Source of the DNA: an uncultured Kiritimatiellota bacterium
GTDB taxonomy: Bacteria; Verrucomicrobiota; Kiritimatiellia; RFP12; DVOR01
Length of the DNA: 64,000 bases
Reading direction: 5' to 3'
Assembly: GCA_944389585.1 (NCBI GenBank)
Contig: CALXMW010000004.1
Coordinates: forward strand, 1-64,000
Positions 1 through 57,031 of this stretch are shown here, piece by piece; the stretch's first letter is position 1; every line of letters begins with the position of its first letter. The notes under the pieces were generated by a model that saw only the letters and a program-made list of their open reading frames with translations, ran no database searches and had not been told where the DNA came from. The translations under genes and the position numbers were made by a program.

Positions 1-478
1 GACAGACACCCCAAAAGACTTTGTGCCCCTTGTGGTGCTTTGAGCCTTTGTGATAGCCCGCGCAGCGACTACCCGCGCACGTCTGCGACGTGCCTGACAG
101 GCACCCCAAAAGACTTTGTGCCCCTTGTGGTGCTTTGAGCCTTTGTGATAGCCCGCGCAGCGACTACCCGCGGCACGTCTGCGACGTGCCCGCGCCCGCC
201 AAGCGGGCGACGGACTAGGGTGGGCAGAGAGGAGGGGACCACTGGGGCGGCGCCCTGTCCGTCGCCCCGCAGGGGCGCTCTTTGTCCTTTGTGACCGTTG
301 TGCCCTTTGCGATTTCCAAAATCCTGGCAGTCCTGCGTGCGCCAGCACGCCCTCAATCTGCTCCAAATCCGCGAAATCTGCGGTTTCTTTCGCCGCAGAC
401 CTCCTTTGTAATTTCAATCTCCGTGCCCCTCTGTGTGTTCCCTGTGGCCTCCGTGGTCTTCCTAGGGTGTGAATAAGG
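1..478. repeat. interspersed modular repeat element A (left end outside window)
   Basis: No gene is seen here. The stretch begins with two tandem copies of a 95-bp unit (1-95 and 96-190), each ending in a hairpin with the 7-8 bp stem GGCACGTC and a 3-nt loop (77-93, 172-190). Then follow a CGCCCGC/CAA/GCGGGCG hairpin, a CGCCCC/GCA/GGGGCG hairpin, and a terminal block rich in TTTGTGATTTC and TCCGTGTCC words (about 280-465). The same modules recur at 7269-7845, 8316-8790, 53128-53472 and 56450-56990. Short open frames across it arise from the repeat itself and are not credible genes. Confidence 0.85.
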
Positions 479-7258: not shown

Positions 7259-7320
7259 GCGCACCTAGAGAAGATCACGGAGGCAACGGAGGACACGCAG
7301 AGGGACACAGGGATGGAAAT

Positions 7321-7392
7321 CACAAAGGACGCAAAGGACGCAAAGGACACAAAGGACGCAAAGGACACAAAGGACACAAAGGACACAAAGGA
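7321..7392. repeat. 9-bp tandem repeat array, 8 units
   Basis: Eight consecutive 9-bp units alternate between CACAAAGGA and CGCAAAGGA. It is followed by a purine-only tract (AAAAGGAAAGGG...) up to about 7438. The unit is the same word that appears, degenerated, through all five interspersed elements. Confidence 0.95.
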
Positions 7393-7510
7393 GAAAAGGA
7401 AAGGGAAAAGGGAAAATGGGGAATGGGGATGGGAGGGGCAAGGGGCGCTGCCCCTTGGACCCCGGCAGGGGGAAGCTCCCCCTGCACCCGCGGCACGTCT
7501 GCGACGTGCC

Positions 7511-7704
7511 TGACAGGCACCCCAAAAGACTTTGTGCCCCTTGTGGTGCTTTGAGCCTTTGTGATAGCCCGCGCAGCGACAACCCGCGGCACGTCCGGCG
7601 GACGTGCCTGACAGGCAACCCAAAAGAGTTTGTGTCCTTTGTGGTTCTTTGAGCCTTTGTGATAGCCCGCGCAGCGAAAACCCGCGGCACGTCTACGACG
7701 TGCC
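7511..7704. repeat. two tandem ~97-bp units inside element B
   Basis: Units 7511-7608 (98 bp) and 7609-7704 (96 bp) share the order TGACAGGCA, CCCAAAAGA, a run of TTTGTG words, GATAGCCCGCGCAGCGA, then a GGCACGTC hairpin. They differ by scattered substitutions, for example GACTTTGTGCCCC against GAGTTTGTGTCC. Confidence 0.85.
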
Positions 7705-7888
7705 AACGCCCGCCAAGCGGGCGACGGACTGGGACGGTGCCTCGCCCGTCGCCCCGCAGGGGCGCTCTCCGTTCTTTGTGCCCTTTGTGATTTCAATCCC
7801 CGTGTTCCTCTGCGTGTCCTCCGTGTCCTCTGTGATCTCCCCTGCGTCGTCCTTCCTTTGCGTTCTTTGTGATTTCCAAAAAAAGAGC

Positions 7889-7936: not shown

Positions 7937-8012
7937 GCGAACTTAGCTCAATTGGCAGAGCTCCACCTTGCCAAGGTGGAGGTTGAGGGTTCGAGTCCCT
8001 TAGTTCGCTCCA
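7937..8012 (+). tRNA. tRNA-Gly (GCC), copy 1
   Basis: 76 nt including an encoded CCA (8010-8012). The acceptor stem is GCGAACT with AGTTCGC, the anticodon loop is TTGCCAA (anticodon GCC) closed by CCACC/GGTGG, and the T arm holds GGTTCGAGTCC. The sequence is identical to the copy at 8123. Confidence 0.97.
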
Positions 8013-8015
8013 AAT

Positions 8016-8091
8016 GGGGGTGTAGCTCAGTTGGTAGAGCAAGTGACTCTTAATCACTGGGTCCACGGTTCAAGCCCGTGCACCCCTACCA
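8016..8091 (+). tRNA. tRNA-Lys (CTT), copy 1
   Basis: 76 nt with encoded CCA. The anticodon loop is CTCTTAA, closed by AGTGA/TCACT, giving anticodon CTT. The acceptor GGGGGTG pairs with CACCCCT, with a G-U pair at position 1-72. It starts 3 nt after the tRNA-Gly CCA. Confidence 0.96.
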
Positions 8092-8122
8092 TCCGGGGAT
8101 GGGACGCCAAAACAGCCATTGC

Positions 8123-8198
8123 GCGAACTTAGCTCAATTGGCAGAGCTCCACCTTGCCAAGGTGGAGGTTGAGGGTTCGAGTCCCTTAGTTCGCTCCA
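8123..8198 (+). tRNA. tRNA-Gly (GCC), copy 2
   Basis: Identical in sequence to 7937-8012 and offset by exactly 186 nt. It lies 31 nt after the first tRNA-Lys. Confidence 0.97.
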
Positions 8199-8201
8199 AA
8201 T

Positions 8202-8277
8202 GGGGGTGTAGCTCAGTTGGTAGAGCAAGTGACTCTTAATCACTGGGTCCACGGTTCAAGCCCGTGCACCCCTACCA
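8202..8277 (+). tRNA. tRNA-Lys (CTT), copy 2
   Basis: Identical to 8016-8091, again offset by 186 nt, so the Gly-Lys pair has been duplicated as one block. A terminator hairpin follows 7 nt later. Confidence 0.96.
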
Positions 8278-8283
8278 TTTTCC

Positions 8284-8315: not shown

Positions 8316-8790
8316 GGAAATCACAAAGGACACAAAACGGAGAACGGAGAACGGAGCGCGCGGCGGCGAAGCCGCAAGCCTTCCCCGGCTACGGAACGCC
8401 CTGACGGGACGGCGCCCAGTCCGTCGCCCGCTTGGCTGGTGCTGGCACGTCGCGGACGTGCCGCGGGTTGTCGCTGCGCGGGCTATCACAAAGGCTCAAA
8501 GAACCACAAAGGACACAAAGTCTTTTGGGTTGCCTGTCAGGCACGTCCGGCGGACGTGCCGCGGGTTGTCGCTGCGCGGGCTATCACAAAGGCTCAAAGA
8601 ACCACAAAGGACACAAAGTCTTTTGGGTTGCCTGTCAGGCACGTCCGGCGGACGTGCCGCGGGTGCAGGGGGAGCTTCCCCCTGCCGGGGTCCAAGGGGC
8701 GGTGCCCCTTGCCCCTCCCATCCCCTTCCCCTTTCTTTTCTTTCTGTGTCTCTCTGCGTGTCCTCTGTGGCCTCTGTGGTCTCCCCTGCG
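8316..8790. repeat. interspersed modular repeat element C (inverted relative to B)
   Basis: Same module set as element B, read on the opposite strand: AAATCACAAAGGACACAAA at the left, hairpin GCGGC/GAA/GCCGC (8363-8375), the GGCACGTC hairpin (8444-8462), two 98-bp units, hairpins GCAGGGGGA/GCT and CAAGGGGC/GGT (about 8667-8710), a pyrimidine tract, and CTGCGTGTCCTCTGTGG at the right. No gene is seen. Confidence 0.85.
8463..8658. repeat. two identical 98-bp tandem units in element C
   Basis: 8463-8560 and 8561-8658 match at every base. Each runs from GCGGGTTGTCGCTGCGCGGGC through four 9-bp CACAAAG words to the hairpin GGCACGTCC/GGC/GGACGTGCC. Perfect identity implies recent duplication. Confidence 0.95.
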
Positions 8791-9062: not shown

Positions 9063-10346
9063 ATGCGCAAGGCGAGTGTCGTTTTGTTGGTGTTGGCGGC
9101 GTTTGGGGCGGCGTTGTGGTGGTGGCTGGGGCGCGGGGGCGCGCCGGCGGCGCAGGTGGCGTACAAGACGGGGGCGTTGACGGTGGGGCGGGCGACGCAG
9201 ACGATCCGGGCGACGGGGACGATCGAGCCGGAGGATTTGATTGACATCGGCGCGCAGATCACGGGGCAGATCATGGCGTTTGGGACGGACGCGGAGGGTC
9301 GGGAGGTGGATTATTGCTCGGTGGTGCGCAAGGGGCAGCTGTTGGCGCGGATCGACGATGTGACGTACAAGGCCGAGGTGACGATCGCGCAGGCGGCGTT
9401 GGCGAGCGCGAACGCGAAGCTAGCCTCGGCGAAGGCCGACGTGACGCAGGCGACGGCGAGTCTGCGCCAGGCGGAGCGCGATTGGGCGCGCGCGCAGAAA
9501 CTGGGGGTGGGGGACGCGCTTTCGCAGAAGGATTTCGACGCTTATCAGAGCGCCTATGAGATCGCGGTGGCGAACCTGGATGTGTGCAACGCGGCGGTGG
9601 CGCAGGCGGCCGCGAGCATCGCTCAGGCGCAGGCGGAGCTGGAGAAGGCGGAGCGGAACCTGTCGTATTGCGACATTTTGTCGACGGTGGATGGGGTGGT
9701 GATCGACCGGCGGGTGAACATCGGGCAGACGGTGACGGCCTCGATGAGCACGCCGTCGCTTTTCCTGGTGGCGAAGGATCTGCGCAAGATCGAGATTTGG
9801 GTGCCGGTGAACGAGGCGGACATCGGGGAGATCCAAGTGGGGCAGGAGGTGCGTTTCACGGTGGACGCTTTCCCGGGGCGGGATTTCACGGGGCGGGTGG
9901 GGCGCATCCGCCTGAACGCCTCGATGACCTCGAACGTGGTGACGTATACGGTGGAGGTGACGACGGACAATCCCGACGGGTTGCTGTTGCCGTATCTGAC
10001 GGCGAACGTGAGCTTTGTGTTGGCGGAGTCCGCGCCGGACGCGCTTTTGGCGCCGGTGGCGGCGTTGCGGTGGCGCCCGGAGGGGTGGGTGCCGCCGCCG
10101 GAGCTGGAGGGGCGCGAGGTGGTCTTTGTGCAGGACGCGCAGGGCGCGCCGCGGGCGGTGCCGGTGGAGCCGGGGGTGAGCGACGACGTGCGCACGGCCA
10201 TCGTCGCGGAGGGTTTGGGGCCCGGGGACGCGGTGATCACCGGGACGATGACGGCGCTGGAGGTGCAGCAGGCCGCGGCCGCGGGGCAGAATCCCTTCCT
10301 GCCGCAGCCGCCGAAGCGGCTGCCGCCGGGGCGGCGGGTGCGGTGA
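9063..10346 (+). CDS. macA: MacA-like periplasmic adaptor of an ABC efflux system
   Basis: 427-residue membrane-fusion protein (HlyD/RND-adaptor family) that bridges an inner-membrane ABC exporter to the outer membrane. Residues 1-22 form an N-terminal membrane anchor. The lipoyl halves (ARIDDVTYKAEV and LSYCDILSTVDGVV) flank a coiled-coil hairpin at about residues 100-200, and a beta-barrel segment carries IEIWVPVNEADIGEIQ and VGQEVRFTVDAF. GGGAGG lies 8 nt before the ATG; the frame stays open upstream only through the tRNA-Arg, so this start is firm. It heads a three-gene operon with the ATPase and permease. A TolC-like outer-membrane partner is not in the window. Confidence 0.9.
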   Translation: MRKASVVLLVLAAFGAALWWWLGRGGAPAAQVAYKTGALTVGRATQTIRATGTIEPEDLIDIGAQITGQIMAFGTDAEGREVDYCSVVRKGQLLARIDDVTYKAEVTIAQAALASANAKLASAKADVTQATASLRQAERDWARAQKLGVGDALSQKDFDAYQSAYEIAVANLDVCNAAVAQAAASIAQAQAELEKAERNLSYCDILSTVDGVVIDRRVNIGQTVTASMSTPSLFLVAKDLRKIEIWVPVNEADIGEIQVGQEVRFTVDAFPGRDFTGRVGRIRLNASMTSNVVTYTVEVTTDNPDGLLLPYLTANVSFVLAESAPDALLAPVAALRWRPEGWVPPPELEGREVVFVQDAQGAPRAVPVEPGVSDDVRTAIVAEGLGPGDAVITGTMTALEVQQAAAAGQNPFLPQPPKRLPPGRRVR

Positions 10347-23499: not shown

Positions 23500-23510
23500 G
23501 AGGCGTCTTG

Positions 23511-53083: not shown

Positions 53084-53127
53084 CAATCCGCCCCACCCGC
53101 GCTTTTTTCCCCACGAAAAGAAAAGGG

Positions 53128-53472
53128 AAATCACAAAGGACACAAAACGGAGAACGGAGCGCGCGGCGGCGAAAGCCGCAAGCCTTCATCGGCTACAGAA
53201 AACGCCCCTGCGGGGCGACGGGCAGACGTTCGCCGCGCGGGCTGTCGCCGCGCGGGCTACCACAAGGGCACAAAGGCGCACAAAGGGCGCAAGGTCTTTT
53301 GGGGCGCCCCTCACCCGTCGCCCGCTTGGCGGGTGTTGGCACGTCGCAGACGTGCCGCGGGTCCAAGGGGCAGCGCCCCTTGCCCCAATTTCCCTTTCCT
53401 TTCCCTTTCCCCTTCGTGTCCGTCGTGATTTCGCTCTGCGTGTCCCTCTGCGTGTCCTCTGTGATCGCGGCA
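53128..53472. repeat. interspersed modular repeat element D
   Basis: No gene is seen. Modules in element C orientation: AAATCACAAAGGACACAAA, hairpin GCGGC.../GCCGC, CGCCCC/TGC/GGGGCG, a single diverged ~98-bp unit with CACAAAGG words, the CCCGCTTGGCGGG hairpin, the GGCACGTC/GCA/GACGTGCC hairpin (about 53339-53357), CAAGGGGC/AGC/GCCCCTTG, a pyrimidine tract, and CTGCGTGTCCTCTGTGATC. It ends within 3 nt of the stop codon of the gene at 53475. Confidence 0.8.
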
Positions 53473-56444: not shown

Positions 56445-56449
56445 ACACG

Positions 56450-56990
56450 CCGCGCGGGCACTCGCTGCGCGGGCTCTCACAAAGGCACAAAGGACCACAA
56501 AGGGCGCAAGGTTTTTTGGGTCGCCCCGGAAAGGGCGCCGTCGCAGTGGTCTCAGGGGTCCCAGTGGTCCCAGACCGGCTGTTTCGGCGGCGCAGGCTGG
56601 GACCACTGAGACCACTGGGACAACTGGGACGGGCAACGCCCTCCAGCCGCCCTCCTCTCTGCCCACCCCAGCCTGTCGCCCGCTTGGCGGACGTGCCGCG
56701 GGTTTTCGCTGCGCGGGCTCTCACAAAGGCACAAAGGACCACAAAGGACACAAAGTCTTTTGGGTTGCCTGTCAGGCACGTCGCGGACGTGCCGCGGGTG
56801 CAGGGGGAGCTTCCCCCCTGCCGGGGTCCAAGGGGCCGCGCCCCTTGCCCTTCCCTTTCCCTTCTCCTTCTCCTTCCCCTTTCCTTTTTCCGTCCTCCCC
56901 TTTGTGCCCTTTGTGTCCGTTGTGATTTTCTGCGTCGTGCGTCTCCGTGTTCCTCTGCGAGTCCTCCGTGCCCTCTGTGATCGCTCCCTC
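56450..56990. repeat. interspersed modular repeat element E
   Basis: No gene is seen. Same modules as element C: two 98-bp-like units (about 56450-56530 and 56698-56800) now separated by a palindromic block, the GGCACGTC/GCG hairpin (about 56777-56795), GCAGGGGGA-type and CAAGGGGC-type hairpins, a pyrimidine tract (about 56845-56900), and CTCTGCGAGTCCTCCGTGCCCTCTGTGATC at the right. It separates the TRIC-like gene from the second large secreted protein. Confidence 0.8.
56544..56630. repeat. large imperfect palindrome of 9-bp units inside element E
   Basis: CAGTGGTCCCAG (56562-56573) pairs perfectly with CTGGGACCACTG (56597-56608), and pairing continues imperfectly outward for about 18 more bases on each side; the loop is 23 nt. 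Each arm is itself a 9-bp tandem repeat (CAGTGGTCT, CAGGGGTCC, CAGTGGTCC). Confidence 0.8.
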
Positions 56991-57031
56991 GGGTTACCCC
57001 ACACGTCTATTTGTTTTTGTGAAAAGAACAC

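Follow-up and report, generated by a model that had tools for sequence, protein, structure and literature searches.

The window analyzed here is a stretch of 64,000 nucleotides at the start of contig CALXMW010000004.1 (assembly GCA_944389585.1), from an uncultured Kiritimatiellota bacterium of the genus Ca. Spyradenecus. Five copies of a hairpin-rich element lie in it (composites A to E; Table 1), and 15 of its 19 perfect triloop stems of at least 8 bp fall within these copies. In element B (7439 to 7764), all seven hairpins listed in a first-pass annotation of this DNA are present, together with an eighth, overlapping one absent from that list (GTGCCT/GAC at 7506). The 326 bases of element B hold 8 perfect triloop stems of at least 6 bp, compared with a mean of 0.165 per shuffle and a maximum of 3 in 1000 dinucleotide shuffles, and 5 stems of at least 8 bp, compared with 0.008 in such shuffles; folded as single-stranded DNA, it has a z-score of -4.3. 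A three-nucleotide loop is the rule throughout the window, as had been annotated, but AAACA or longer loops occur in some copies elsewhere. Loops are indeed more variable than stems, with a mean diversity of 0.169 in loops, 0.061 in stems, and 0.106 in linkers (28 rows from the source genome). The loop differences cited for HP3 are partly a strand artifact, because TGC and GCA are reverse complements and represent the same hairpin on opposite strands, as do GGC and GCC. The HP3 stem GGCACGTC/GACGTGCC is invariant in the window, and its sole coupled change is an extra C/G next to the loop.

Table 1. Features of the element and its composites in the 64,000-nucleotide window
Feature	Position	Strand	Sequence or remark
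Composite A	1-470	+	Cut by contig start; end approximate
Left arm of composite B	7267-7345	+	GATCAC..GAGG and (CACAAAGGA)n 9-nt quasi-tandem; tandem continues to 7400
HP1	7439-7457	+	CAAGGGGC-GCT-GCCCCTTG, then GACCCCG; in alignments A1 and A2
ACCCC-type tag between HP1 and HP2	7458-7464	+	Also in other phyla, where it is part of the search pattern
HP2	7465-7485	+	GCAGGGGGA-AGC-TCCCCCTGC; best-covarying hairpin
Second tag	7486-7491	+	ACCCGC
HP3 copy a	7492-7510	+	GGCACGTC-TGC-GACGTGCC
Spacer of 98-nt tandem unit	7511-7587	+	TGACAGGCACCCCAAAAGACTTTGTG...
HP3 copy b	7588-7608	+	GGCACGTCC-GGC-GGACGTGCC
HP3 copy c	7686-7704	+	GGCACGTC-TAC-GACGTGCC
Hairpin	7707-7723	+	CGCCCGC-CAA-GCGGGCG
Hairpin	7750-7764	+	CGCCCC-GCA-GGGGCG
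Right arm of composite B	7765-7843	+	CCTCTGTGATC near its end
Composite C	8316-8790	-	Inverted copy past tRNA block; end points approximate
Hairpins of composite C		-	HP1 8693-8711; HP2 8665-8685; HP3 8638-8658, 8540-8560, 8444-8462
Composite D	53126-53463	-	Without HP2; ends approximate
Composite E	56448-56995	-	Ends approximate

Composite B is a fold-back structure whose seven hairpins form the middle and whose nested inverted arms, 79 nt each and 84% complementary, are built of 9-nt quasi-tandem repeats. The composite ends resemble GATCAC../..GTGATC (more fully, GATCAC..GAGG and CCTCTGTGATC), and an RNA fold of the whole (7267 to 7843) has a z-score of -13. Arms match their own partner only slightly better than the arms of other composites (P = 0.04, driven by locus L023), and arm-to-arm coevolution was set aside on this weak signal. 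Composites B and C are inverted to each other and flank a block of four tRNA genes, in which a tRNA-Gly/tRNA-Lys pair is exactly duplicated (7937 to 8278; 186-nt unit); the double pair is also present in the relative G001 (L233), in another neighborhood. The source genome (1.95 Mb in 26 contigs) contains 54 matches to the element, partial or full, and three contigs (C4, C17, and C22) start or end inside a copy. Interchangeable cassettes of 9- to 11-nt quasi-tandem repeats flank elements in the window (7321 to 7400) and at loci L041 to L053 of relatives G003 and G005, with the repeat strings CACAAAGGA, ACACAGAGG, GCTGATTGG, TTCCAAGCC, TCCCAGTGG, and GCAGATTNC. Similar strings presumably occur in many unrelated bacteria, and we know of no name for them.

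Within the phylum, the element is restricted to one genus among the genomes searched: matches were found in 9 of 40 relatives, only members of the source genus, and in 8 of 288 genomes of the phylum, all Ca. Spyradenecus. Copy number across species of the genus ranges from 0 to at least 149 (33 matches in the source genome, at least 149 in G005, 86 in G003, 46 in G008, and 6 in G001), and 5 of 11 relatives in the genus have none. All 128 full-length copies tested in the genus fall outside genes predicted by a purpose-made gene finder (leaving out rows from G006, G011, and G015, which lack gene calls), with 24 between divergent genes and 20 between convergent genes.

Comparison of the source genome with the part of G001 examined (HlyD 91% identical) shows copies missing at some matching sites. 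A composite with two inverted copies at L023 (3714 to 4729) is missing in G001 (L229, near 9662 to 9678), where no target-site duplication is seen and the flanks are also altered, and the second copy at L029 is missing in L037 (115 bp compared with 514 bp). At least four copies are common to relatives (L024/L036 beside tmRNA, L030/L038, L029/L037, and L035/L230). Relative to G001, gene order is broken or replaced at copies in L017, L026, L030, and L032 and, in the window, at composites B and C; a further synteny break near position 23500 has no copy close by. The break beside L024 sits exactly at the end of the tmRNA gene, a usual place of genomic islands. There (L024, 3637 to 3990; L237; L036), an island-like difference of 12 kb between genomes begins exactly at the tmRNA end. 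Candidate movers were sought in the host genomes. A Y1 transposase (PF01797) was found in 0 of 1 source genome, 2 of 16 genomes of the genus, and 3 of 17 other hosts, draft assemblies in which absence is not final, and a reverse transcriptase (PF00078) in 0 of 13 genomes within the genus and in 5 of 14 outside it; both were set aside as movers because they were not found in most hosts. No parent transposon was seen in this search, which was limited to the same two families.

The first-pass annotation had also read the matched changes in stem arms as compensatory, hence as a sign of selection on the folded form, and had suggested a covariation test over genomic copies. The seed alignment (A1) was partly gathered by hairpin pattern. 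For alignment A2, 794 kb were scanned with a sequence-only model, avoiding preselection of paired copies, and the best 150 of 170 matches were aligned (127 distinct). Over the three-hairpin structure of A2, 97.3% of stem cells pair, compared with 92.7% in shuffles (0 of 500 as high), and slid frames pair at only 24 to 50%; changes on both sides occur in 11 of 26 stem pairs, compared with 4.3 in shuffles. Under a tree-aware null that keeps the changes per column (110 rows), an HP2 pair (columns 35 and 62; A-U, G-C, and C-G) is the strongest of all 2278 column pairs, with ~0.01 expected by chance. HP2 variants that all pair include GGGGGA/TCCCCC, GGGCGA/TCGCCC, GGGAGA/TCTCCC, and GGGGGT/ACCCCC. 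HP1 occurs as CAAGGGGC/GCCCCTTG and as GTGGGGC/GCCCCAC; its pair 4-20 (0.07 expected by chance) ties with the non-pair 4-19, so the HP1 covariation amounts to about one event. Stem partners changed on the same branch in 15/47 cases, compared with 331/3712 among other column pairs. Most stem pairs barely vary and are hence uninformative on covariation. HP3, the example chosen in the annotation, serves poorly: its stem hardly varies, double changes are rare, and none of its pairs is significant one by one under the same null. Compensatory change is thus real, chiefly in HP2, but thinner than had been claimed, with few events within the genus. What is conserved appears to be the folded shape and not the precise letters.

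The same core is found in bacteria of widely different kinds. A search for HP1, tag, and HP2 base as an exact pattern (26 fixed letters) retrieved 92 stretches from a collection of 84,980 species. The hosts are isolates of Sandaracinobacter and Sandaracinobacteroides, other Sphingomonadales, Acetobacteraceae, Selenomonadaceae (Negativicutes), Oscillospiraceae and other Clostridia, and the source genus. Eighty loci among these stretches were taken, 69 of them from outside the genus and holding 75 copies, and each of the 17 pattern-bearing host genomes tested has several copies, from 5 to 149. The right arm of HP2, which is not in the pattern, has CCCTGC in 68 of the 75 copies and is then followed by ACCC in 65 of the 68. 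The inner stems of HP2 vary in sequence and length across phyla yet still pair: in the 22 distinct types, complementary letters stand at 38 of 44 positions, compared with 21.5 in shuffles (maximum 31 in 2000). A further alignment, A4 (32/33 distinct foldable types from the 75 copies plus ten rows from the genus), has a biased pairing score, other-phyla rows having been kept only when HP2 folded, and we therefore place weight on A2 and on the inner-stem test.

Of 74 copies in other phyla, 62 follow the upstream gene in sense orientation (62:12; one further copy overlaps a gene call), with Selenomonadaceae at only 3 of 6. The 41 co-oriented copies in Sandaracinobacter and Sandaracinobacteroides lie 0 to 71 nt past the stop codon (median, 20). 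In Sandaracinobacter loci, ACCC stands on one side of 177 of 566 perfect hairpins (31%), compared with ~2.4% expected from base frequency; elsewhere it flanks 58/188 in Firmicutes, 19/68 in the Acetobacteraceae/Sphingomonadales set, and 51/254 and 102/635 in the genus, all at loci chosen for holding copies and so not genome-wide rates. No matching sites were found among the fetched loci of three Sandaracinobacter(-oides) species. A search of 398 genomes from the phylum to which one Clostridia host belongs gave matches in 4, three of them with a single weak match, under strict filters and with 14 candidates scored each. Several long A/U-rich hairpins at a Selenomonadaceae locus (L130, 2832 to 2895, 4199 to 4254, and 6558 to 6617) give sub-threshold matches to miRNA models, which are probably due to chance.

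The core also lies on plasmids and in a phage. BLAST matched it, at 84 to 88% identity, on plasmids of Streptomyces (two) and Prauserella (one); one of the Streptomyces plasmids carries a run of five tagged hairpins, and the other has a similar run. On both Streptomyces plasmids (L254 and L255), the array occupies a long gene-poor region and has just one annotated gene, of ~26 to 30 kb (UvrD-helicase domain), next to it. In a tortoise-gut microvirus, the core adjoins the replication gene. The exact pattern gave 0 stretches in viral contigs, and a Clostridia-type query gave no match in plasmids and seven phage records. Six of these are unannotated, possibly bacterial fecal records (the four examined are marked UNVERIFIED), and thus only the tortoise microvirus is counted among phages.

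Paired positions do change together, but pairing alone does not prove selection on the folded form, because palindrome-correcting template switching would also yield perfect stems. Stems could be made or remade in this way, as corrected quasi-palindromes, or could descend from a few master copies that spread recently, with no selection on the fold. Intermediates are few, stems and linkers differ little in diversity (0.061 and 0.106), and HP2 types track subfamilies and linkers and therefore represent few independent events within the genus. We nonetheless regard this explanation as distinctly unlikely, given inner stems that are complementary yet unlike across host groups while base and tag stay the same, a diversity lower in stems than in loops in each of the three groups, and same-branch co-change in 15/47 cases in stems compared with 331/3712 elsewhere. 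The likeness between phyla might instead be convergence, since it takes little for a GC-rich hairpin with a C-rich tail to arise. Their composition is simple (left arms purine-rich, right arms pyrimidine-rich), and no shared flanks are seen. Against this stand the 26 fixed letters of the matches, the common right arm and second tag outside the search pattern, and, at loci chosen for copies, ACCC beside 31% of perfect hairpins in Sandaracinobacter compared with the expected ~2.4%; convergence appears to us rather improbable.

Selection at the RNA level would account for the fold in all hosts, this genus included, if the unit were an abundant 3'-UTR stabilizer or terminator. The sense orientation just past stop codons in other phyla (62:12), the covariation of stems, and the strong RNA fold all agree with such a role. 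Within the genus, the picture differs: 54 copies share the orientation of the upstream gene and 66 oppose it (P = 0.32; 8 more have no upstream gene in the stretch), 24 of 128 lie between divergent genes, and imperfect pairs comprise 35 G-U and 24 A-C (P = 0.19; 9:11 in a second count). With no G-U excess and no preferred gene orientation, the genus data argue against a one-strand cis-acting RNA there, and ACCC follows the hairpins in place of the U-run of an intrinsic terminator. An RNA role common to all hosts is rather unlikely in our judgment.

In the reading we prefer, the element is probably a REP-like repeat with a unit of ~50 nt (hairpin 1-ACCCC-hairpin 2-ACCC), accompanied in this genus by a third hairpin. 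The unit is multi-copy and intergenic, its stems are kept through changes of letter, and its core recurs in very unlike bacteria. In Ca. Spyradenecus it is housed in the larger fold-back composite, which is present or absent at those matching sites of related genomes that could be compared. The composite may spread as a nonautonomous, MITE- or REPIN-like element, its hairpins folding in single-stranded DNA and being copied or moved by some factor. Scattered, near-identical inverted copies could also act as recombination sites, which would explain the synteny breaks at copies. In Sphingomonadales, Acetobacteraceae, and Clostridia, the compact sense-oriented unit behind stop codons is probably a 3'-end RNA hairpin for mRNA end protection or termination, and E. 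coli REPs are thought to act in this way.

A broader scenario is possible, if doubtful: ACCC-tagged hairpin chains would be a third great family of tagged palindromes, crossing from one phylum to another, perhaps via single-stranded DNA phages and plasmids, and lodging past stop codons as hairpins at 3' ends. In one Kiritimatiellales genus they would have become part of a fold-back mobile element, and the enzyme moving all of them would be something other than a RAYT or a reverse transcriptase. REP-like repeats belong to the most abundant noncoding DNA of bacteria, and the movement of the best-known kinds is tied to one enzyme class. In the ACCC-tagged family the tag is another one, no enzyme of that class was found in most hosts, and occurrence is patchy and high-copy in several phyla, with the same core placed in sense behind genes in some hosts and free of orientation in another. 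Two questions become testable: which enzyme, if any, reads ACCC-tagged hairpins, and whether the hairpin acts as RNA or DNA.

Among known systems, the GTAG- and CGTC-tagged REPs are the closest in kind; as described in Di Nocera 2013 (PMC3733652), these palindromes are intergenic, present in high copy number, and marked by a few unpaired tag letters on one side, and they are found in several phyla and mostly downstream of genes, all of which applies here. Unlike them, our unit comprises two different hairpins in tandem and carries the tag ACCC; no ACCC-initial word appears in the accessible main text of PMC3733652, nor was such a motif seen in the accessible portion of a 2025 REP survey (PMC12306157). 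With ACCC as the tag in 65 of the 68 copies with a complete HP2 base, and CGTC occurring in HP3 within the stem rather than as a tag, the element falls outside the GTAG/CGTC superfamily; as a short, intergenic, multi-copy palindrome, it is a REP in the broad sense. Searches of the literature by words and by sequence, with most subscription journals outside their coverage, gave no description of it. At the gathering threshold, Rfam finds only tRNAs in the window. The Clostridiales-2 RNA (RF02937) was considered and rejected, with scores of 22.6 bits (window) and 35.1 bits (L142) below the threshold of 58.6; the first hairpin of this RNA is similar to HP2 read on the opposite strand (GGGUGCAGGGGG..CCCCCUGCC), and its alignment has one hairpin, compared with two tagged hairpins here. 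REPINs, which accompany RAYT enzymes, are two-hairpin units spread in intergenic DNA as an inverted pair. Our unit likewise has two hairpins and is spread through intergenic DNA, but the hairpins stand in tandem, each with a tag behind it, and the REP-associated Y1 transposase was not found in most of the (draft) host genomes. MITEs and modular repeats such as BOX have terminal inverted arms, no gene, and a modular build and are present or absent between relatives. The composite shares these traits, including 79-nt terminal inverted repeats, but its arms are nested 9-nt quasi-tandems, and neither a parent transposon nor a clean target duplication is seen. Most likely, then, this is a new REP-like family whose mover has not been found and which, in this genus, has acquired a MITE-like housing.
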